15,418 nucleotides of DNA from an uncultured Lachnospiraceae bacterium (GTDB taxonomy: Bacteria; Bacillota_A; Clostridia; Lachnospirales; Lachnospiraceae): the NCBI GenBank assembly GCA_947175285.1, contig CAMWMM010000054.1, positions 1-15,418 of the forward strand, in the 5' to 3' direction. A program made the translations under genes and the position numbers. The notes below the pieces were generated by a model. The model ran no database searches. It saw nothing but the letters and a program-made list of their open reading frames with translations, and was not told where the DNA came from. Position 1 is the first letter of the stretch. The number at the start of each line of letters is the position of its first letter. Of this stretch, positions 1-10,258 are shown piece by piece.

Positions 1-369
1 CTTCTCAGTATATAGAAAAACATTTTTCTTGAAATAATTCAGATCTTCTTCTACAAGACATATTAGTTTACTCAACTCACTAATTTGACTGGTCTGTTCC
101 ATCTCATAATACTCTTGCTCTGAAATACATAAACAAAATATACAAGTAATATTCTTATCCATATCCACCTGATATATTTCTGTGTTCTTTTTTATAGTGC
201 TAAAAATTTCTACTGTTTTCTCCTTTAACTCAATTAATTGTTTCTTATCACTTAGGAAAAAGAATAAATAATATGAATTAAAATCTTTCTTTACAAACAA
301 AGTATCATATTCCATATATCTGAAATTCAAAGATCCTTCTCCTGTAATCGATTCTATAAATTTACGCAT
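1..369 (-). CDS. Probable ABC-3C middle component (partial, runs off left edge)
   Basis: An open frame of 123 codons starts at ATG 369 and continues without a stop to the window edge. The start is supported by an AGAGGT ribosome binding site 7 bases upstream. The product begins MRKFIESITGEG and ends in a stretch reading LVEEDLNYFKKNVFLYTEK. An acidic EED followed by FKK and YTEK near residue 105-123 recalls the small middle-component proteins of ABC-three-component systems, which link an effector to an SMC-like ABC ATPase. The gene lies 27 bases behind the candidate effector at 397-1980, the usual effector/middle component/ATPase order. The assignment rests on memory of the family and on context. 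The C-terminus and the expected ATPase gene lie outside the window. Confidence 0.6.
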   Translation of the reverse strand, partial: MRKFIESITGEGSLNFRYMEYDTLFVKKDFNSYYLFFFLSDKKQLIELKEKTVEIFSTIKKNTEIYQVDMDKNITCIFCLCISEQEYYEMEQTSQISELSKLICLVEEDLNYFKKNVFLYTEK

Positions 370-396
370 AAATCTTACCTCTATTCTAATCTAATA

Positions 397-1980
397 TTAT
401 GAAAACTGCCCTATAATCTCTTTAGCAGTTACAAATCTTGGCTTCTTTGGATTGCAAATGCTATGGTGATTAACATCACTATCCATTTTTGTTTTATTGC
501 TAATAAATTTTTCCTCTATTTCAACATAGTCATAATCCCACACTGATCCTTCTGATGATAAATCAACAGTAATCAACTCATCTGCCTCAAAAATTGGACT
601 GACTAATTCTGCATTATTATTTATTCCTCTGGTTATATTCTCTACTGCAATTTCGCTATTCTTTCCCTCGATTGCAGTTAGAAACGCATTATTATTTTGA
701 TTATTAACAATAACTTTCGTCTTATCATTTGCATTTATAAAATCAATATTTGAAACATTTTTTAATATTTCAAAAGCAGATTCCTGCATTCCCTGTGTTC
801 TTAACAATTTCATAAGACAATCCCGATCATCAATACTTTTATCGCAATCAGGATTATAATGAAAACACATTCTAACAAATTCTTCATCCGATAAATTTAC
901 TTTTTCGTACTCATCTTTATATATTTTGCATTCGTAGTTATTTGTTTTTTCACACTGATGCTTGCATACCGTTCTACAATATTGAGATAGAATTTCTTCA
1001 TATCCTCTACGCAATGCCAAAATATTAGCTTCCCGCTCATATATGGAAATACTTAAATCCAGAATATCAAACAAATCTCCAAACGAAATCTCTGCCTTAA
1101 TAATCCCGCCCTTTTGTATTGCATTATGCCTTTGCAAAACATGATTTCTCATATAATGCAACAATCGATCTGCTATATACTCATATTGCCCTTTGGAAAT
1201 ATATTTATCATTATTTTTATATCGTCTTACCTGCTCAACAATCTTATTGAAAAGTTCTTTTCCCTCACAATACAATTTCTTGCTATCATATGGAAACAAC
1301 ATAACCTTTTCATCTATATAATCAATTGCCAATTTGTTTTCTAAATATTCCAATAATTCTTTTAGCTTATCCTTTACTAGATCATACTTCTTATCATTAC
1401 ATGATTTAACTACCCCATCGATCAACTTTTTATAATAAGTTCGATTTAATTTTATAGGTTCATTCTTCATTATTCCACCTATTTTGTTATAAAAATTCTC
1501 TCTTTCATTCTCTTCAATATAATTGCCAATAAACACTTTGATACTGTTATAAAAATCATTTATACATTTTGCCCAACTTGACAATTGTTGATCGATCGTA
1601 TTATTGTCTTCCTTCACTCGGCTGCTGATATGTAAAAATGCCTCTGGGTTCCCTAAGCTTTTCATTTTCCAAAAGCCTTTTTCGAGCATTAATTGAATTA
1701 ATGGGTTCCTATAATCACAAATGCTGTTATCTTTCTGATTTTTTACTTGATGAATTGAAAGATATTGTTTTTGTTTTCCATCGTCTTTTACAACAGCTAT
1801 GTCTTCGCTCTTTTCTACTTCCAACCAGTATTCTGACTTGATTACCTCTTTCGACAGCCCATTCTCTATAAGATCACAAATTTTACATACTGCCAAATAA
1901 ATTGCAACTTCACCTTGATATATAAACCCACTCCATGTTGGTGTAGCGTCATGAATAAAGATATTTTCATCTTTTGCCAA
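397..1980 (-). CDS. ABC-3C effector with Cap4-like (DUF4297-type) PD-(D/E)XK nuclease domain
   Basis: This 527-residue protein starts at TTG 1980, with AAGGAG about 11 bases upstream. Residues 13-24 (TPTWSGFIYQGE) match the SGF..Q opening helix of Cap4/DUF4297-type proteins. An EVEKSED segment (54-60) followed by HQVK (77-80) gives the acidic and Q-x-K residues of a restriction-endonuclease fold, so DNA cleavage is the likely output. The middle is mostly helical. A cysteine cluster (C335, C339, C343, C351, then C372, C379, C388) could bind metal. Residues from about 298 (ISFGDLFDIL) onward resemble the C-terminal domain that docks these effectors to their middle component. The 369-1 gene follows after 27 bases. 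In ABC-3C systems the ATPase is thought to sense invasion and release the effector. The family call is likely; catalytic activity is inferred. Confidence 0.68.
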   Translation of the reverse strand: MAKDENIFIHDATPTWSGFIYQGEVAIYLAVCKICDLIENGLSKEVIKSEYWLEVEKSEDIAVVKDDGKQKQYLSIHQVKNQKDNSICDYRNPLIQLMLEKGFWKMKSLGNPEAFLHISSRVKEDNNTIDQQLSSWAKCINDFYNSIKVFIGNYIEENERENFYNKIGGIMKNEPIKLNRTYYKKLIDGVVKSCNDKKYDLVKDKLKELLEYLENKLAIDYIDEKVMLFPYDSKKLYCEGKELFNKIVEQVRRYKNNDKYISKGQYEYIADRLLHYMRNHVLQRHNAIQKGGIIKAEISFGDLFDILDLSISIYEREANILALRRGYEEILSQYCRTVCKHQCEKTNNYECKIYKDEYEKVNLSDEEFVRMCFHYNPDCDKSIDDRDCLMKLLRTQGMQESAFEILKNVSNIDFINANDKTKVIVNNQNNNAFLTAIEGKNSEIAVENITRGINNNAELVSPIFEADELITVDLSSEGSVWDYDYVEIEEKFISNKTKMDSDVNHHSICNPKKPRFVTAKEIIGQFS

Positions 1981-2137
1981 CCTTATCTCATCTCCTTAGT
2001 TTTACATTTACCACTTTAAAAACTTTACTAATTTTCTGCCTTATCCAACATAAAAAACATTTGTCAAATCTGGCTATGACTCTCCAATTTTGCCCATTTT
2101 GTCATTGAAGAGCCTCTTAATCGCAAAAGTATTATAA
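1981..2137 (-). promoter_or_regulatory. Intergenic gap with probable promoter for the ABC-3C genes
   Basis: This 157-base gap is the longest untranslated stretch among the left-hand genes. Read on the minus strand it holds a perfect -35 TTGACA (2067-2062) and, 16 bases on, GATAAG (2045-2040), which matches four of six -10 positions. An AAGGAG ribosome binding site then precedes the TTG start at 1980. A short palindrome (AAGAG-C-CTCTT, 2108-2118) lies upstream of the -35 and could be an operator; its one-base centre argues against an RNA hairpin. No terminator with a T-run is visible after the nuclease stop at 2138. The -35 is convincing and the -10 is weak. Confidence 0.45.
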
Positions 2138-2836
2138 TCATTTCTCTATTGCTTTTTCTTTTAAATCTTCTAATAAAAACCGAGAAAAAATATTATCCTT
2201 TTTTCTAACATATTTATTATGATTCTTTTTATATTTATCAATTAGTACAGATGTGTGTATATATTTCATATTATAGGTACATTCACTAGATCTTGTTGCA
2301 GGAACAACTTCGTTCAGATTACTGTCACTTATTGCTAATAATCCAATACCCGTTTTTCTTAACAGAGACAGATTGACAAGTTTGATATTGTCCACTGGCA
2401 ATGCTAAATATGAATAATCTGAAAATAACAAATATCTCTGTGCCTGAATTAATCCATTTTTCCAATCACTTATCTTTGCCTCAACCGCAACTGTAATCCC
2501 TAACTGTACATTTCTAATACTATTCGTAACTCTGACCACCTCTTTGTTGAGTGCAACTAAATTCATACCAGCCAATTGCAAAACATATTTTTTTATTCTT
2601 TCGATGGTAAATAAAAATTTTTCTTTTATTTCTTTTAATGTAGTTTTCTTTTTTATATCAATAAAATCCCAAATAGAAAATAAATAATAATCATCCAAAC
2701 ATTTCATTCTCCTATTTCCCCCTAAGTTAAATGATATATCTGGAATGCCAATACCCATTCTGATTTCATTCGCATAACATATTCCATGACAATATAAATA
2801 TTTGTTCATAGAATTAACAATCTCTGCTTCTAACAT
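2138..2836 (-). CDS. PD-(D/E)XK family nuclease, translationally coupled to the kinase
   Basis: With the ATG at 2836 the product is 232 residues. This start has AGAGG 8 bases upstream and overlaps the kinase stop in ATGTTAG (7 bases). A longer frame from ATG 2878 exists but has no ribosome binding site and would sit deeper in the kinase gene. The catalytic signature of the restriction-endonuclease fold is clear: an early acidic helix (MLEAEIV, E3/E5), IPD at 31-33, VEAK at 118-121, then DW and the helix QAQRY at 131-135. The spacing between D33 and E119 is long, with a lysine-rich helical insert around 60-90 that could contact nucleic acid. The protein probably cuts DNA or RNA. The stop-start overlap implies expression in fixed ratio to the kinase, so regulation by phosphorylation or direct partnership is plausible but inferred. 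I do not recognise a named family. Confidence 0.7.
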   Translation of the reverse strand: MLEAEIVNSMNKYLYCHGICYANEIRMGIGIPDISFNLGGNRRMKCLDDYYLFSIWDFIDIKKKTTLKEIKEKFLFTIERIKKYVLQLAGMNLVALNKEVVRVTNSIRNVQLGITVAVEAKISDWKNGLIQAQRYLLFSDYSYLALPVDNIKLVNLSLLRKTGIGLLAISDSNLNEVVPATRSSECTYNMKYIHTSVLIDKYKKNHNKYVRKKDNIFSRFLLEDLKEKAIEK

Positions 2837-4887
2837 TCTTCCATCCTCTTTTGCAATCTTTCTATTACTTCTAACCATGTTTTTAGAAATTTGTAATCAT
2901 CATCTTTAAAAATCGGTTTCAGATTTTTGTAATAATTTATTGCATTTTTAACACGTTCCTTTACATAATCTGCTCTCTCATCCACAGTTGAGATACTCCT
3001 GAGCAACTGTATCTCTTCGTTCCTTCGATACAGGAAATGTCTCTTTGTCAACTGATCATTCATAAGTAATGCTGGATCAATTCCATTACAATAAGGACAA
3101 TGGCATATTATATCCTTACCAACTTCGGAATGCAATAATTGTTGTATTCTAATTGGATTTTTTCGGTCAACCGATACCGTTTTTAAAAGCTCTGGCATAT
3201 AATATCTAATAGGCATATTAAATGGTTTTTCGCTGGCATCCTTATATAAATCTTCATAAAATGATTCAAACCTTGCTACCCCTGATTCAAACGCATATAA
3301 ACCAAACGCAAGAAGTATAAGCCCAAATGTTCCTATTCTTCCAGCTATAACAGGCTTATTTGTCGATTTTTGTAAATCAAGCAGTGCAGTCGCATAATTA
3401 TATAGTTGTGATACGTTAGAATTTTCATTAATACAATCAACATATATCCAATACATATCACAATTCAATCCAGATAACACATTCAAAAAATACTCTCGTT
3501 CTTTTCTATCTGTAAGAATATCTGCTTTGATGCAAAAACCTCCTACTAATTTCCCATCGAATTTTAATAAATCCAAATAAGATTTTGTTTCTTCTAGTAA
3601 CTTTACATCCAGTGAAAACCAATTTTCATTTATATCCATCTTGATTTTTACCATATTTGAATTATTACTCATATGAAATGGAGCGACAATATTTTTTATA
3701 CCATGTTTTAATTGTTCATCAACAACCTTCTTTACATATTCTTTTTTAGTCTCATAATCCTCTAAATCTTCCAATTGTAATCGTTCCAATTGCTTTGGTG
3801 CATAGGGCAACATTGCAAGTCCTTTAACTTCTGCATATGTGTCATATGCCAATCGCATAGTTGCCGGATCTATGATAATATTAATATTATTGCTTTTCAC
3901 AAACTTTAATAAATTCTTTTGTCTGTCTTGATGATTAATTGGGAAAATTACATTCTCCACCATAAACCCATCTTTATAAAACTGTTCAAATACAGACTTA
4001 TCATCAAATAACCTTACGTAAAAAGAGGGCATAAACTGTTTTGCAATATTCTTTGCTGCAACATTATCTTTTTTGATGTATTCTCTAATATCTTGTATAT
4101 TGTTCGGTCGCTTATAATTTTCTTTTTGCAACAATGTCATGACCAAGTTATCAATACCGTTGTTTATCGTTGGAATAAAAAATCTAATTGAGATTGGCGG
4201 TTCGACTTTAATCTTGTAATATAATTCCTCCCTTGAACTCACTGCTCCATAAGGAGTATTAGCAGTTAATAATTTAAATAATATTACTCCCATTGCATAA
4301 TAATCAGAACGATAATCTATATTTTTGCTATCGCTTATTTGTTCCGGTGACATATACAATGGGGTTCCTAATTGATCACCTGTATTTGTAATAGATGTAT
4401 AATCTATTAATTTAGACAGACCGAAATCTAGTATCTTAATATTGCCATTTTCTAACAGATAAATATTAGCAGGTTTTAAATCTCTATGAATTAAATTCTG
4501 TGAATGGATTGACTCTATACCATATAAAATCTGACTAAAAATTCTTATAGCCTCTTCCATTTCAACCTTTCTGCTTCTCATAACAGTTTCCAAATCCTGT
4601 CCTTCGACAAAATCCATAACCACATATATGTATTCCCATCCATTATCTACAAATGTACCATCATCTATATAGCCTGCAACATAATCGCTGTGAACCTTTT
4701 TAAGTGCCTCGATTTCCCTTGTAATTCTATTATCTTCACCCTTTGCAAATTCGGAAAAGACATAATCCATTGCAAAAATCTTCATAGCGTATGTACAATT
4801 ATCTTTTTGACATTTGTAAACAGTTCCAAAAGAACCTTTACCTTTAAATTCTATTATCTCATAACCATTAATCTCTTTACCAATCAT
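2830..4887 (-). CDS. Ser/Thr protein kinase fused to a TGT/DpdA-like TIM-barrel domain
   Basis: I choose ATG 4887 (685 residues) because GAGGGA lies 8-9 bases upstream; the in-frame ATG 4902 has no ribosome binding site. Residues 1-270 are a complete eukaryotic-type kinase: glycine loop GKGSFG (16-21), YAMK lysine (36), HRDLKPAN (134-141), DFG (154-156), GTPLYMSPE (174-182). All key residues are present, so it should be active. The C-terminal 400 residues lack the usual transmembrane or PASTA region. Alternating hydrophobic strands (NIIIDP, NIVAPF, VGGFCIK, MYWIYVD, VIAGRIG) suggest a TIM barrel. A CxCxxC...H set (C595, C597, C600, H617) followed by FLYRRNEEIQLLR recalls the zinc site of tRNA-guanine transglycosylases and DpdA. 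It follows pglX by 51 bases and overlaps the nuclease gene by 7. It is not PglW, which is larger and built differently. The kinase call is firm; the barrel is an inference. Confidence 0.82.
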   Translation of the reverse strand: MIGKEINGYEIIEFKGKGSFGTVYKCQKDNCTYAMKIFAMDYVFSEFAKGEDNRITREIEALKKVHSDYVAGYIDDGTFVDNGWEYIYVVMDFVEGQDLETVMRSRKVEMEEAIRIFSQILYGIESIHSQNLIHRDLKPANIYLLENGNIKILDFGLSKLIDYTSITNTGDQLGTPLYMSPEQISDSKNIDYRSDYYAMGVILFKLLTANTPYGAVSSREELYYKIKVEPPISIRFFIPTINNGIDNLVMTLLQKENYKRPNNIQDIREYIKKDNVAAKNIAKQFMPSFYVRLFDDKSVFEQFYKDGFMVENVIFPINHQDRQKNLLKFVKSNNINIIIDPATMRLAYDTYAEVKGLAMLPYAPKQLERLQLEDLEDYETKKEYVKKVVDEQLKHGIKNIVAPFHMSNNSNMVKIKMDINENWFSLDVKLLEETKSYLDLLKFDGKLVGGFCIKADILTDRKEREYFLNVLSGLNCDMYWIYVDCINENSNVSQLYNYATALLDLQKSTNKPVIAGRIGTFGLILLAFGLYAFESGVARFESFYEDLYKDASEKPFNMPIRYYMPELLKTVSVDRKNPIRIQQLLHSEVGKDIICHCPYCNGIDPALLMNDQLTKRHFLYRRNEEIQLLRSISTVDERADYVKERVKNAINYYKNLKPIFKDDDYKFLKTWLEVIERLQKRMEEC

Positions 4888-4938
4888 ACTTTCTTCCCTC
4901 ATTAACTTTAAGTGTCCAATGTAGACTTCCTCTAAATT

Positions 4939-7900
4939 CTATATCTTTGCCAGTACTTGATACTTCTTTCCATCTTTTGCAGTCTGCACTTTCTCATAGT
5001 TTACCTTAACTCCATCATCCAAATCAAGTTCTATCCGTGATAGTGCCAAATGTCCAATCTTTTCATCGTAATCATGACACTCTTTTAGCTGTCTCTGCAA
5101 CTTTTCTTTTCGCTTTGCTGCAGCTCCCACTTCCCGACTATTTGTGCTGTGATCTATCATATCCTGCATACGACCAATTTCAGACTCATAAATCCTCTGC
5201 ATGCGGTGCAGATAATCAACACGCAAATTTCCAACAGTATCCGCATTATACCGATGTAGATAAATCAGTGCCTTAAACCCGTTCTGTTTTCCACTGTCAA
5301 AGAGCCAGTATATAGGTCTCTTGCCAGAACCAGTAACAGAATATGTCGTGCAGTGATCCTTAAAGAAATCATTTACAAAATAGTTACGTATGATTTCTCT
5401 TGATGTGTCACCTTTGTTTTTGAGTGCTGATGCTATAAAGTCCAGGTTCCGCTCTAAAGTGTCTTTCCCATATACCTTCTTTAACCAACTACAGAATAGA
5501 CCAAGAATATCATCCTCAAAGTATTCCTCATCTGTAATGGGAATGATGTTATCCTTGTCAGGAATAAATGTATTGTATCTACTATTGTCCCAATCACCAC
5601 CAGCATACGCAAGTCCCTCAACATCAAGGGAATAACGTCCAAACATACAGCCAACTGCATAGGAGATCAGGCTCTTGATATCTCTCTGTAAATCAGCCTT
5701 GCGAACTGTAACATCCTTATCCTCAACTTCTGGTGTTAGTTCACCCTGCAAGCCATATATGTCAATGAAGATACGGTTTAGTTCTTCCTCGTTTATTTTT
5801 AATTGATTGAAACGAATATCACATTCATTTTCCCACCAGAAAAATGAATCCTCTATACGATAGAACCACTCTCCTTTATTCTCCCTCTCTTTTGATTTTT
5901 TCTTCAACCTAATCAATGGATGCTGTTCAAAATTCCATGAAGTTTCAAAGGAGTCCCAGTCTTCTCTTGAAATTAAAATACACTCGTTTACTCTATTTGT
6001 AACACTTTCAAATATTTCGTCAGAAATAAGAACGGGAATTCTTGCCAAGTCTCCCGATTGTAGTGTTGCAGTAGGATTCAACATCTCTGCAAATTTTTGA
6101 ATAACCTTTGAATTAAGAACACCCAATGTGTAAGGAATATCTTTGCTTTTAGGAAAGCAAACACCTGACGCACTTTCAAAGAAATAACCTTTTGGCATTA
6201 TGCGGAAAGAAGAAGCGCCAATAGTAACACGTGACCAAGAAACGCCTTCTTCAAAGAGTTTTTCTGCATTTCGTATCGTTTGACGCCCTTCTGCCTTTAT
6301 ATTACGTCCATCATCTTCCCAATCAATGTAATAATCTTGATTACCATACCATTTACGAAACGCCCCACCTTTTAAACATTTAAACCACTTTTTCTTATTA
6401 TGTATTACTTCAAACCATAGTCGTAAAAACAGATCATTGTTTCCTGTAGTAGACCCCTGTTTGGGAGGAGCAAACGTCCCTAATGGTTTTCCATTAACGA
6501 ACGCTTCTATTACTGCAGGACTTGCCCAGTATGCAATAGGACTACCCGGAATCTTTCTAAATCCTTCTTGTTTTGCAAAGTAAATTCCTTTACCTTGCAG
6601 GAACACTTTTTCACGTTCGTCCACACTTTGTACATCGCCTTGCTTAATAAACAGACGACGATAATGCCCTTTATAATCATGAATACTATCGCGCATAATT
6701 ATAAAGGATGTAGTACCAAAGTCTGAGCCAAAAATCCCTCTTCCGGGTTGTATCAAGCTAATAATAGTACTAAAATCCATAAGGTTTTCACGCAATCGCT
6801 CATAAGTAGATAAGAACATCCATACTGGAATGTTAATCATTGTCATTAACCCATTAAGTTTGAGCATTAAAAGGGTTTTCTCCATACAGACTGTACTCAT
6901 ATCTGCCTTACTGTTAGGATAGTACTTTTTTACAAAATCATTTATCGGCTCATCCAGTTTACTCGCATTTGCATACGGCGGATTCGTTGCAACCACTTCA
7001 TACTTCCTTGCCATCACCTCGCCAATATCAATCAGCATTTGCAATCTCTTCTGTGTCTGCTCAATCCCTACCGCATCCAACGTCATCTGCCCACCAACAC
7101 CAGCACTTTCTGCAAACCGCCTCAGCAAATCCCAATCATAATCCGCAACATTCAAAATGGAACCATACTCCTTGGCATCCTTAAATGTATCAAGCAAGCC
7201 TCCAATCTGGTTCAATGCATCATTTTTCTCCACCTCATTGAAACCCACACCAAAGTATGTGAGCTGCTGCCTATTGATATGATTACTCTCCTGTATGGAA
7301 TACACATGACAAACAGTGTCTGCTGAAAGAATCCGGCGATTATACTGTCTTGCTTTCATCATTACAGCGAAATACGCCATCTGATATGCCCTATCGTCGA
7401 TATCCAAACCATAGAGATTATTTTCAAGGATGTTCTTGGCAGCATCCCTCTGGGAATATCCGACAGACTCATAGATCTGCATCAACACGTCAAATGCATA
7501 GACAAGAATATGTCCACTGCCCATACAAGGATCGATAAAATGGATATCCTCTGGATTCAGTTTCGCATATTCTTTATGTATTTCATCAAGTTTTACCTGA
7601 ACTTCTGGCTCCTGCTCTGCCTCCTCCAGATAATATTTCCACTTGGATTTCAGCAGATCATTCGGATGCCCTTCTACCCACAGACGTCCAAGACTATTTT
7701 CCACCATATAACGCACAATCCAATCCGGTGTAAAAAGTTGTGTTACCGCAGGAATCTCTTCTTTTGTAATCTTTCCGTTTTTTGAAAATGCTTCATTTTT
7801 CGGCTCGGTATTGTAATACTGATACAGCCAGCCAATAATCTCTACCTGACCACCTTTTTCGATGTTGAAATCATCCTCCGAAATATCGTTGACCAGATGA

Positions 7901-8540: not shown

Positions 8541-8903
8541 CTATGCCAATGCCATTACCATTGTTTGCAAATACCAAATTAAAATTCCTACATACGGCGT
8601 TTTGGGATCTCTTTCCTCCCTGAAAGCATTCAACATTTCCGTACAATAACTATGTAAATGTTCTTCTTCTACCTTCCCAATGTCATCGATCAATGCATCT
8701 AAAGCTGCTCTCCGCTCTGCGATCAAAGGTGCAGATACACAGTTTAGATTTAATGTATTCGCTAAATCAAACTGCACATCTGAATCCGTTGCGTCAATTC
8801 TGCCATCTAACGTATAAAAAATTGTCGAAAGTCCGCTTAATATGGGATCTTCTCTCAATTCTTTTAATCCCTCGGGCTCGATTCCTTTTTTTACCTCAAT
8901 CAT
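8541..8903 (-). CDS. PtuB/TIGR02646-like protein lacking the HNH core
   Basis: The ATG at 8903 abuts the TAA of the ATPase gene with no gap and has GGAGG 10 bases upstream. Residues 1-17 (MIEVKKGIEPEGLKELR) match the start of the TIGR02646/PtuB HNH nuclease family. Residues 26-75 (IFYTLDGRI, LNLNC, RRAALDAL) and the end (YVGILIWYL, 104-111) match its C-terminal part. The family is usually about 200 residues or more; this one has 120. The central CAYC...IEH and N-rich HNH section is missing, with the join around residues 18-25. No HNH cysteines or histidines remain, so nuclease activity is not expected. It could be a scaffold, an inhibitor-like remnant, or a decaying gene kept in frame. It sits 23 bases before pglX. 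The family match is from memory. Confidence 0.66.
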   Translation of the reverse strand: MIEVKKGIEPEGLKELREDPILSGLSTIFYTLDGRIDATDSDVQFDLANTLNLNCVSAPLIAERRAALDALIDDIGKVEEEHLHSYCTEMLNAFREERDPKTPYVGILIWYLQTMVMALA

Positions 8904-10214
8904 TTATTTCTGTCCTCCCCGGATTCTCTCCAGCTTTAGTTTTACTCTATCGGCGGCAACTTCTTTATCATGGTAATTCCTCTGCCCATCAATTTCATCC
9001 AAAACCTTTTCTGCCACATCGTATTGCCCATCATTCAGCAGCAAATAGAATTGACTGAAAAGATTAGCAATGACAGGATCGCGATCCGATACACCCATAA
9101 TATCTTTCAAAATGGAATTTACATCATTTCCAAAAATTTCGGCACCTGCATCCAGCACCTCATAATCCTTTAATATAACAAGGTTCTCGCTCTTTGCACT
9201 ACTGATGACTGCCGGCGCATGAGTTGTGACAATAAACTGAACTCTCGGAAAAATCTCCTGCAAATCTCCAAGAATGCGATGCTGCCATGCAGGGTGCAGA
9301 TGCAAATCCACTTCATCGATCAAAATGACCCCATTCGTTTCATCAATTACAGCTGTTTTTAGTTGCGGATTTAATACAGCCATCCGATAGGCAATATCCG
9401 CAATTAGACTAATAGTGCTTTTATATCCATCACTCATCTGTGACAATGGAATGCTCATACGAACTCCATCCTCATTAACATAATGGCATTCAATCTCATT
9501 CGTATCCAGATTATAATCAAAAGCCACACCATGATACCCTGTAATGCGTTCATAACAAATCGCCATTGCTCTACAAACAACTGCTAGTTCCATGAACTCT
9601 CCCAATCCTTCTGCACTCTTTTGTATTCTTTGGATTGTCTTCTTTTTAAACCAACTCATCATCAGTTTAATGTTCGCCGTTCCATCCAGACTGTCAATAT
9701 AGCCATTTGTTTTTGTGTTATCCTTAAAAGTATCTGTTTTCTTTTCTCTATGGTAGTCCCACAAACGTCCAGTGCCATAATATGCAATGATAGGAAGTAC
9801 CAGTGCTGCATCCCCATTCCGTAGACGTTCTTGGTAGCCCTTTGCAATATCCGTCATCGCTTTCGCATCTTTCCTGACTGTAATGCCGTTTTCTCCATTT
9901 AAAGCTCTTTTCCATGTGATCGTTTGTCCATCTATATCACCCCTAGCAGTTATTTCAACCGGATACTGCGGTTGGACATCTTCAGACTCTCCCATCAAAT
10001 ATGCTTTTAATCTGACATCCTTTTTATAGATGCTTAGACCAACCTGTCCATCCAAACCTGTAAACATTGTTCCCAGAGAGACAGCCAACCCTTCAAGAAT
10101 AGAAGTTTTTCCGGAACCATTATCCCCGACAATTACCGTTAGTTTCTCATGGAAATTTACCTCGATATCTTCAAAGCATCTATAATTTTTTAGCGCTATC
10201 CACTTAATAATCAT
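8904..10214 (-). CDS. RecF/OLD-like AAA ATPase, PtuA (Septu)-like
   Basis: I prefer ATG 10214 (436 residues), with GGAGAG about 9 bases upstream, over ATG 10229, which has a poorer site. The protein opens MIIKWIALKNYRCFEDIEV, typical of RecF/SMC-like ATPases. It has Walker A GDNGSGKT (30-37), an ABC-type signature MSDGYKS (260-266), Walker B VILIDEVDLHLHP (296-308) and a TTHAP switch (330-334). No TOPRIM domain follows, so it is not a full OLD nuclease. A pairing with a TIGR02646/PtuB protein defines Septu and the effector part of retron Ec78, in which the ATPase controls an HNH nuclease. Here the following protein lacks that nuclease core. The pair is inserted between brxC and pglX, after a gap of about 90 bases that is unusual for this operon. 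The ATPase itself looks intact. Confidence 0.82.
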   Translation of the reverse strand: MIIKWIALKNYRCFEDIEVNFHEKLTVIVGDNGSGKTSILEGLAVSLGTMFTGLDGQVGLSIYKKDVRLKAYLMGESEDVQPQYPVEITARGDIDGQTITWKRALNGENGITVRKDAKAMTDIAKGYQERLRNGDAALVLPIIAYYGTGRLWDYHREKKTDTFKDNTKTNGYIDSLDGTANIKLMMSWFKKKTIQRIQKSAEGLGEFMELAVVCRAMAICYERITGYHGVAFDYNLDTNEIECHYVNEDGVRMSIPLSQMSDGYKSTISLIADIAYRMAVLNPQLKTAVIDETNGVILIDEVDLHLHPAWQHRILGDLQEIFPRVQFIVTTHAPAVISSAKSENLVILKDYEVLDAGAEIFGNDVNSILKDIMGVSDRDPVIANLFSQFYLLLNDGQYDVAEKVLDEIDGQRNYHDKEVAADRVKLKLERIRGGQK

Positions 10215-10258
10215 TTTATTTCTCTCCATTTCACTGCTTCTATCCTTATTTTTACCAA
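10211..10258 (-). other. Possible 15-codon leader ORF before the PtuA-like gene
   Basis: In the gap after brxC, AAAGGAG (10268-10262) precedes a TTG at 10258 by 3-4 bases. From there an open frame reads MVKIRIEAVKWREIK and stops at TGA 10213-10211. The stop overlaps the preferred ATPase start in ATGA. The best ribosome binding site in the gap therefore serves this small frame rather than the ATPase. It may be a translational coupling leader, or a chance frame with a relic ribosome binding site. Conservation would decide. Confidence 0.25.

Follow-up and report, generated by a model that had tools for sequence, protein, structure and literature searches.

A window of 15,418 nucleotides (the whole stretch of DNA that was analysed) from an uncultured Lachnospiraceae bacterium carries a gene joining a Ser/Thr protein kinase to a barrel that resembles tRNA-guanine transglycosylases (TGTs), with a gene for a nuclease-like protein directly next to it. 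Other, scattered bacteria and an archaeon carry the three components as well, and together these look like a module of defence type that has so far gone unrecognised; newness was judged against PADLOC 2023, Pfam, NCBIfam, PHROGs and open-access papers, with the 2024-2026 defence catalogues and bioRxiv preprints outside that scope. The best explanation, to which we give an even chance, is that the fusion and the next gene belong to a single mobile unit of defence type, whose barrel and partner would detect an invader and thereby activate an output that can be exchanged. The domains, the TGT fold, the conserved residues, the genetic linkage and the occurrence of both fused and split versions were computed, and it is from these that we infer defence, sensing, the identity of the effector and the order of events. 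If true, the known defence repertoire gains a small system of three parts in which a TGT fold, catalytic by its appearance, is coupled to a protein kinase, and its fused, split and output-swapped forms make the logic testable: what senses, what kills, and whether a base-swapping fold became a sensor.

The kinase-barrel fusion gene occupies 2830..4887 on the minus strand and specifies 685 aa. Its frame is open to 4902 (2830-4902 in full, 690 aa), and the start was placed at the second Met (4887), where the family consensus begins; residue numbers given here are those of the 690-aa frame, five higher than in the first-pass annotation of this DNA. The Ser/Thr protein kinase domain (4102..4860, minus strand; residues 15-267 of 690) matched Pfam PF00069 (Pkinase) at 3e-48, and K41, D141, N146 and D159 were kept in all aligned rows that reach them, and E63 in all but one. 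Homologues of the fusion numbered 291 at E up to 0.01, which rules out chance or an assembly artefact as its origin. The protein lists used were the best 120 of 291, 136 and 386 proteins, and conservation was read from an alignment of 242 proteins in three clades (A-C), some of them fragments, the rows of which are not independent because many in clade B are more than 97% identical. No description of a kinase-TGT-like fusion was found in open-access papers, as the first-pass annotation had supposed, and the available part of PMC12839542 describes no kinase-TGT unit. Among the 20 matches listed for the fusion protein in phage records, only the kinase part was matched, and the 50 matches listed for the full-length model against viral entries were kinases or unnamed proteins.

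The barrel comprises residues 287-690 (2833..4044, minus strand). In the predicted model of the C-terminal part of the fusion protein, eight strands follow each other in TGT order, and the matches listed from the PDB were TGTs (archaeosine TGT, QTRT1) at 11-17% identity. On this modelling the barrel is a TGT fold, and the proposal that an intact kinase is joined to a TIM-type barrel of this kind was upheld by both structure prediction and the fold-database search. The kinship to TGT families was evident in predicted structure only: hhalign of the barrel profile with TGT gave just 5-7% probability, and for four family members NCBIfam, PADLOC and Pfam yielded nothing from PF01702 or from a TGT or DpdA model with E up to 10, HMMER filters applying, one of the four matching ArcS at E 0.019. 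Five matches of the barrel model to viral entries, at E up to 0.001, were uncharacterised or unnamed, and no relative was found in viral contigs scanned with three barrel queries.

Barrel residues were mapped to those of TGTs by strand order, using what we take to be the Zymomonas mobilis TGT numbering (Asp102 at the end of strand 3, Asp156, Gln203, Gly230, and the nucleophile Asp280). Asp345 (3868..3870, minus strand), at the end of barrel strand 3, would then occupy the place of Asp102. This is the Asp (D340 in the earlier numbering) for which a catalytic role had been suggested from an IIIDP strand end, and it was conserved in 241/242 aligned proteins and 8/8 diverse barrels, with Asp-Pro retained in 12/12 further, partly overlapping barrels checked. 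His410 after strand 4 (3673..3675, minus strand), present in 242/242 proteins of clades A-C, would take the place of Asp156, and the ends of strands 5 and 6, corresponding to the Gln203 and Gly230 sites, were not conserved between clades. No acidic residue common to the family stands at the end of strand 8, and Asp280 is without a certain counterpart. A possible stand-in is offered by Glu546 and Glu550 after strand 8 (3253..3267, minus strand), as residue 546 is Glu or Asp, and residue 550 Glu, in 242/242 proteins of clades A-C, and a weak hhalign pairing places residue 546 with the TGT nucleophile; the acidic residues at 546 and 550 are not kept in the Kocuria, Natribaculum or Polaromonas barrels.

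A TGT-like metal site, Cys600, Cys602, Cys605 and His622 (3037..3105, minus strand; C600-x-C602-x2-C605-x16-H622), was found as first described (there C595, C597, C600 and H617), being conserved across clades A-C in 242, 241, 242 and 241 of the 242 proteins, respectively. Together with D345, all four residues were invariant in an 88-row set that included members of only 31% and 23% identity. The CxCxxC...H motif is kept in three fused Bacillota clades, and both SIR2-linked barrels carry CxCxxC, but the latter is absent from the Kocuria fused barrel and from 8/8 full-length split barrels (a ninth, that of G640, is a fragment ending before CxCxxC and was left out of this count). The site is therefore not fully general, and a metal site essential to the whole barrel family is ruled out by its absence from these barrels. 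Judged from the sequences, the constant element of the family is Asp-Pro, not the metal site.

These residues bear directly upon one alternative, in which the barrel is an active, DpdA-like base exchanger placing a mark on DNA or tRNA, with the partner cutting DNA that lacks the mark and the kinase controlling both. The TGT fold, the conservation of D345 (241/242) and of an acidic residue 546 (242/242), and the adjoining nuclease-like partner would all suit such a modification-restriction system, as would the use of TGT homologues by Dpd and BREX-related capture (BRC) defence in the portion of PMC12839542 available; but a His at the Asp156 place and unconserved Gln203 and Gly230 regions (by the strand-order mapping), the missing acid at 546 in Kocuria, Natribaculum and Polaromonas, and the lack of synthesis genes adjoining the barrel weigh against it, and we consider it rather unlikely. 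Since the TGT base-recognition positions appear changed and the metal site is not universal, the modelled active site argues against ordinary guanine exchange, and another reaction would still be compatible with it. A broader and more speculative proposal, which we hold to be quite improbable, is that this TGT-fold family outside PF01702 is a shared sensor-enzyme of immune modules in Bacteria and Archaea, keeping an N-glycosidic-bond reaction that gates swappable toxic outputs. Its site would be Asp-Pro plus, in some clades, a new acidic residue; its substrate would be invader nucleic acid, a nucleobase ligand or a partner protein; and the outputs would be kinase, SIR2 or RES, mostly together with the nuclease-like partner.

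The first-pass annotation saw no genes for 7-deazaguanine synthesis, and none lies next to the fusion in the window. Its suggested tie to 7-deazaguanine or preQ precursors was not borne out, as the base-recognition positions appear changed, no synthesis gene is adjacent, and the host QueC matches were fragments (at most 57 of 210 positions; 22.5-23.2 bits against a cut-off of 22). A TGT family search found no tgt gene in the host genome; a TGT match was present in 33 of the 40 genomes searched (the host's own among them), 32 over the cut-off, so the missing host tgt is probably an assembly gap. The host genome carries queA (G000:C156:833-1843).

The partner gene (2138..2836, minus strand; 232 aa, frame open to 2878) overlaps the end of the fusion gene by 7 nt (2830..2836, minus strand; ATGTTAG), which holds both the barrel stop and the partner start, and the start Met is common to its homologues. 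In an alignment of 30 diverse members (246-aa numbering), the residues invariant in 30/30 include E38, G42, I45, D47, E133, K135, W139, Q145, A146, R148 and Y149, a pattern we take to be PD-(D/E)XK with a RecB-like Q motif. A wider set retained ExK and the following Q in 12/12, with D47 and Y149 varying. Between D47 and E133 lies a probable inserted winged helix, the likeness being weak (best PDB match E 0.078; in Pfam, HTH_PafC at 1e-5 as the best and FeoC at 1e-4, in a few members), and the Polaromonas partner is without most of this stretch. Nuclease families of Pfam were not among the 25 partner matches listed, and it is the motifs that point to a putative PD-(D/E)XK-like nuclease.

Linkage of the three components was seen from both directions. 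The partner adjoins 9/9 kinase-barrel loci that were found without using it (the window, G645, G160, a Priestia plasmid, G470, G421, G592, G731 and G657; that of G470 is truncated where the contig stops, E 5e-4), and kinase and/or barrel adjoin 8/8 loci that were reached by searching with the partner (plasmids of Kocuria, Natribaculum and Polaromonas, G609, G618, G640, G597 and G549). All 15 loci with a kinase or a kinase-barrel fusion have the partner adjacent. Two of the 120-protein lists shared 33 contig sizes, where a jitter control averaged 0.85 and never exceeded 4, and partner or barrel occurred in 0/80 unrelated kinase loci, these being genome contigs matched over the kinase when searched with the full-length fusion alignment. 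Seven held-out partners ranked 1-7 of 7,990 ORFs with a fused-type partner profile (worst E 1.3e-8), and nine barrels left out of the barrel profile, five of them first found with a related profile, ranked 1-9 of 7,992 (worst E 1.5e-4), the E-values of these local HMM searches depending on small databases. Gene order and strand vary, being convergent in Priestia and Kocuria and kinase-barrel-partner in G470 and G618, so the adjacency is not just that of one inherited operon. Split and fused barrels are homologous (hhalign 93.6%, E 2e-7), with HMM matches of the split barrels at E 4e-15 for Natribaculum and 0.0019 for Polaromonas. A profile search for more loci matched 12 genomes, of which 10 were taken in and two (G524 and G634, 19-21 bits) left out. 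A 20-bit match in G693 was interrupted by stops.

Carriers of the module include Bacillota, Actinomycetota, a betaproteobacterium and a haloarchaeon. Kinase and barrel are fused in the window clade, the G160 clade, the Priestia clade and Kocuria (in G645 the kinase side lies beyond the contig), and are separate, adjoining genes in Natribaculum (the haloarchaeon), Polaromonas, G421, G592, G731, G657, G470, G618 and G640, the barrel frame of the last being short (155 aa); several of these carriers are Bacillota. At G609 partner and kinase alone were seen, the contig ending inside the kinase. In G597 and G549 a SIR2-like gene stands beside barrel and partner, in the place of the kinase (L157:1580-4570 and L158:3797-6756; partner, TGT-like barrel with CxCxxC, SIR2-like gene), and no kinase was matched in either locus at E up to 0.05. 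The G549 protein has a weakly scoring match to PDB 1ma3 (E 4.4e-4) and carries GAGxS...GIP and TNxD, presumably SIR2 motifs; that of G597 was assigned by eye only, and the barrels of both loci have weak scores (E 8e-6 and 1.5e-4). The nuclease-like partner, and a kinase that in some loci has its own gene or gives way to a SIR2-like one, go beyond the first-pass annotation. In Natribaculum the order is partner, kinase, barrel, then a metallophosphoesterase gene. The product of the latter (L124:9488-10177) is calcineurin-like and may counter the kinase.

The two SIR2 loci help in weighing another account, in which the barrel is a non-catalytic, nucleic-acid-binding scaffold, for which we take the eukaryotic QTRT2 subunit to be a parallel, and the kinase phosphorylates and activates the partner, the nuclease being the effector. 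This would fit the constant adjacency of the partner in the 15 kinase or fusion loci, the gene overlap in the window and the phosphoesterase gene of Natribaculum, but barrel and partner occur in both SIR2 loci without a kinase, so phosphorylation is not needed everywhere; the account is weakened and, in our judgement, unlikely.

Barrels also occur alone. Five actinobacterial plasmids (Gordonia bronchialis, Gordonia sp. SMJS1, Rhodococcus antarcticus, Mycolicibacterium rufum and M. chubuense) carry one with neither kinase nor partner (5/5 loci), so barrel and partner are not inseparable. RES and an Xre-type or helix-turn-helix gene, a toxin-antitoxin pair, lie beside 5/5 of the stand-alone barrels examined (L119:7972-10248, L120:3803-6104, L121:1836-5588, L133:3722-5768 and L134:2379-4516), four loci having an annotated RES and Gordonia bronchialis one picked up by profile; with the exception of the L119 RES, the RES and Xre profiles were built from loci later searched with them. 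The barrel of L121 is in two pieces, one on each side of an IS element, and genes for an APH-like phosphotransferase and a cytidylyltransferase-like protein lie near the Gordonia barrel at L119:10505-12249.

A core pair whose third part differs from locus to locus, and a barrel of this kind next to the toxin RES, make up a sensor-effector immune pattern, and by analogy with it barrel and partner are read, with moderate confidence, as the recogniser and the kinase as the output. The first-pass option of a barrel sensor with the kinase as signal output is thus the one favoured here. The core would be the TGT-fold barrel and the PD-(D/E)XK-like protein, which in most cases includes a winged helix, and the output part would be interchangeable. 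It would be a Ser/Thr kinase in the window, SIR2-like in two loci and, for the stand-alone barrels without partner, the neighbouring RES-Xre. Barrel and partner would bind some sign of the invader, be it a nucleic acid or nucleobase-like, and binding would switch on the tethered or co-encoded kinase, which would phosphorylate cell proteins and so halt growth; the partner may cut DNA. The conserved acidic residues of the barrel would suit an active enzyme as well.

The surroundings of the cassette also point towards defence. The window carries the BREX genes brxA, brxB, brxC and pglX. A PtuAB-like pair lies within this set and ABC-3C genes lie outside it; neither pglZ nor brxL is seen, because contig C315, of 34,933 bases, ends at window position 1. 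GC content is 0.28-0.32 for positions 1-5000 and 0.38-0.42 beyond, dropping where the cassette begins, and by this composition the cassette appears foreign. The PtuAB-like pair (8541-10229, between brxC and pglX) consists of an ATPase resembling PtuA and a protein of 120 aa whose match is confined to the C-terminal part of PtuB, and an ABC-3C middle component and CTD1 protein (1-1980) come after the cassette in the same low-GC block. Elsewhere, an AbiEii-type gene and a Cap4-type nuclease lie near the G160 cassette, an AbiEii-type gene adjoins that of G645, a DrmMI/type IIG-like methylase is near that of Natribaculum, and helicase and methyltransferase genes lie about 5 kb from that of Priestia. 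In G731 a 1124-aa ATPase (L138:22-3396), presumably of DUF499 type, ends 65 bases before the partner start codon. No obvious annotated defence genes are close to the Kocuria and R. antarcticus barrels.

It might be argued that the module is not for defence, and is instead a mobile regulatory or toxin-antitoxin-like unit that stabilises its carrier element, with the partner as repressor. A winged-helix-like stretch in the partner, the RES-Xre neighbours, carriage on plasmids and a recombinase-like gene, read by eye, adjoining the G160 cassette are what such a unit might show, but the nuclease motifs are intact in 30/30 partners and defence genes are repeatedly nearby, which makes this very unlikely.

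Comparison with known systems revealed partial likenesses. TGTs (PF01702; archaeosine TGT, QTRT1) have a similar barrel fold, but the kinase fusion, the absence of a PF01702 match, a Cys-His spacing of 16 rather than the 25 of the TGTs compared, and changed base-reading positions set the present barrel apart. Dpd (DpdA) and BRC likewise place a TGT homologue in a defence setting, and, as far as the available part of PMC12839542 goes, TGTs occur in BRC systems and PD-(D/E)XK auxiliaries in BREX. DpdB/DpdC, HerA and GNAT were not seen beside the fusion in the window, which has a kinase and nuclease-like partner instead, and the BRC features PglZ, DUF6079 and HerA/FtsK are not in the window, whose position 1 is the contig end. 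The defence kinases PD-T4-6, MAD6 and PglW have the Ser/Thr kinase domain in common with the fusion (PD-T4-6 1.4e-56, mad6 9.4e-58), but the PD-T4-6 and MAD6 matches listed stop by residue 286, none covering the barrel, and MAD6 scored 130.9 bits against a cut-off of 460. A 7-deazaguanine-pathway fold is also reused in immunity, with base recognition altered, by qatABCD and type IV CBASS, there of the QueC family and not TGT, and a kinase is not mentioned in the available part of that source (PMC13279940). The window cassette follows pglX as if part of BREX type 1, yet it is not a constant part of BREX: tblastn of the window BrxA, BrxB and BrxC gave no match in any of the other 16 cassette loci, which span 5-32 kb apiece (a diverged BREX could escape). 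This rules out the cassette as a BREX subunit, and the sole match of PglX was to a piece of the Natribaculum methylase with 24% identity. Occurrence is patchy, the cassette being found in 1/397 genomes of the host's family (the host's own), in 1/58 of the family of G160 and, with the diverse barrel profile, in 7/398 of the phylum.
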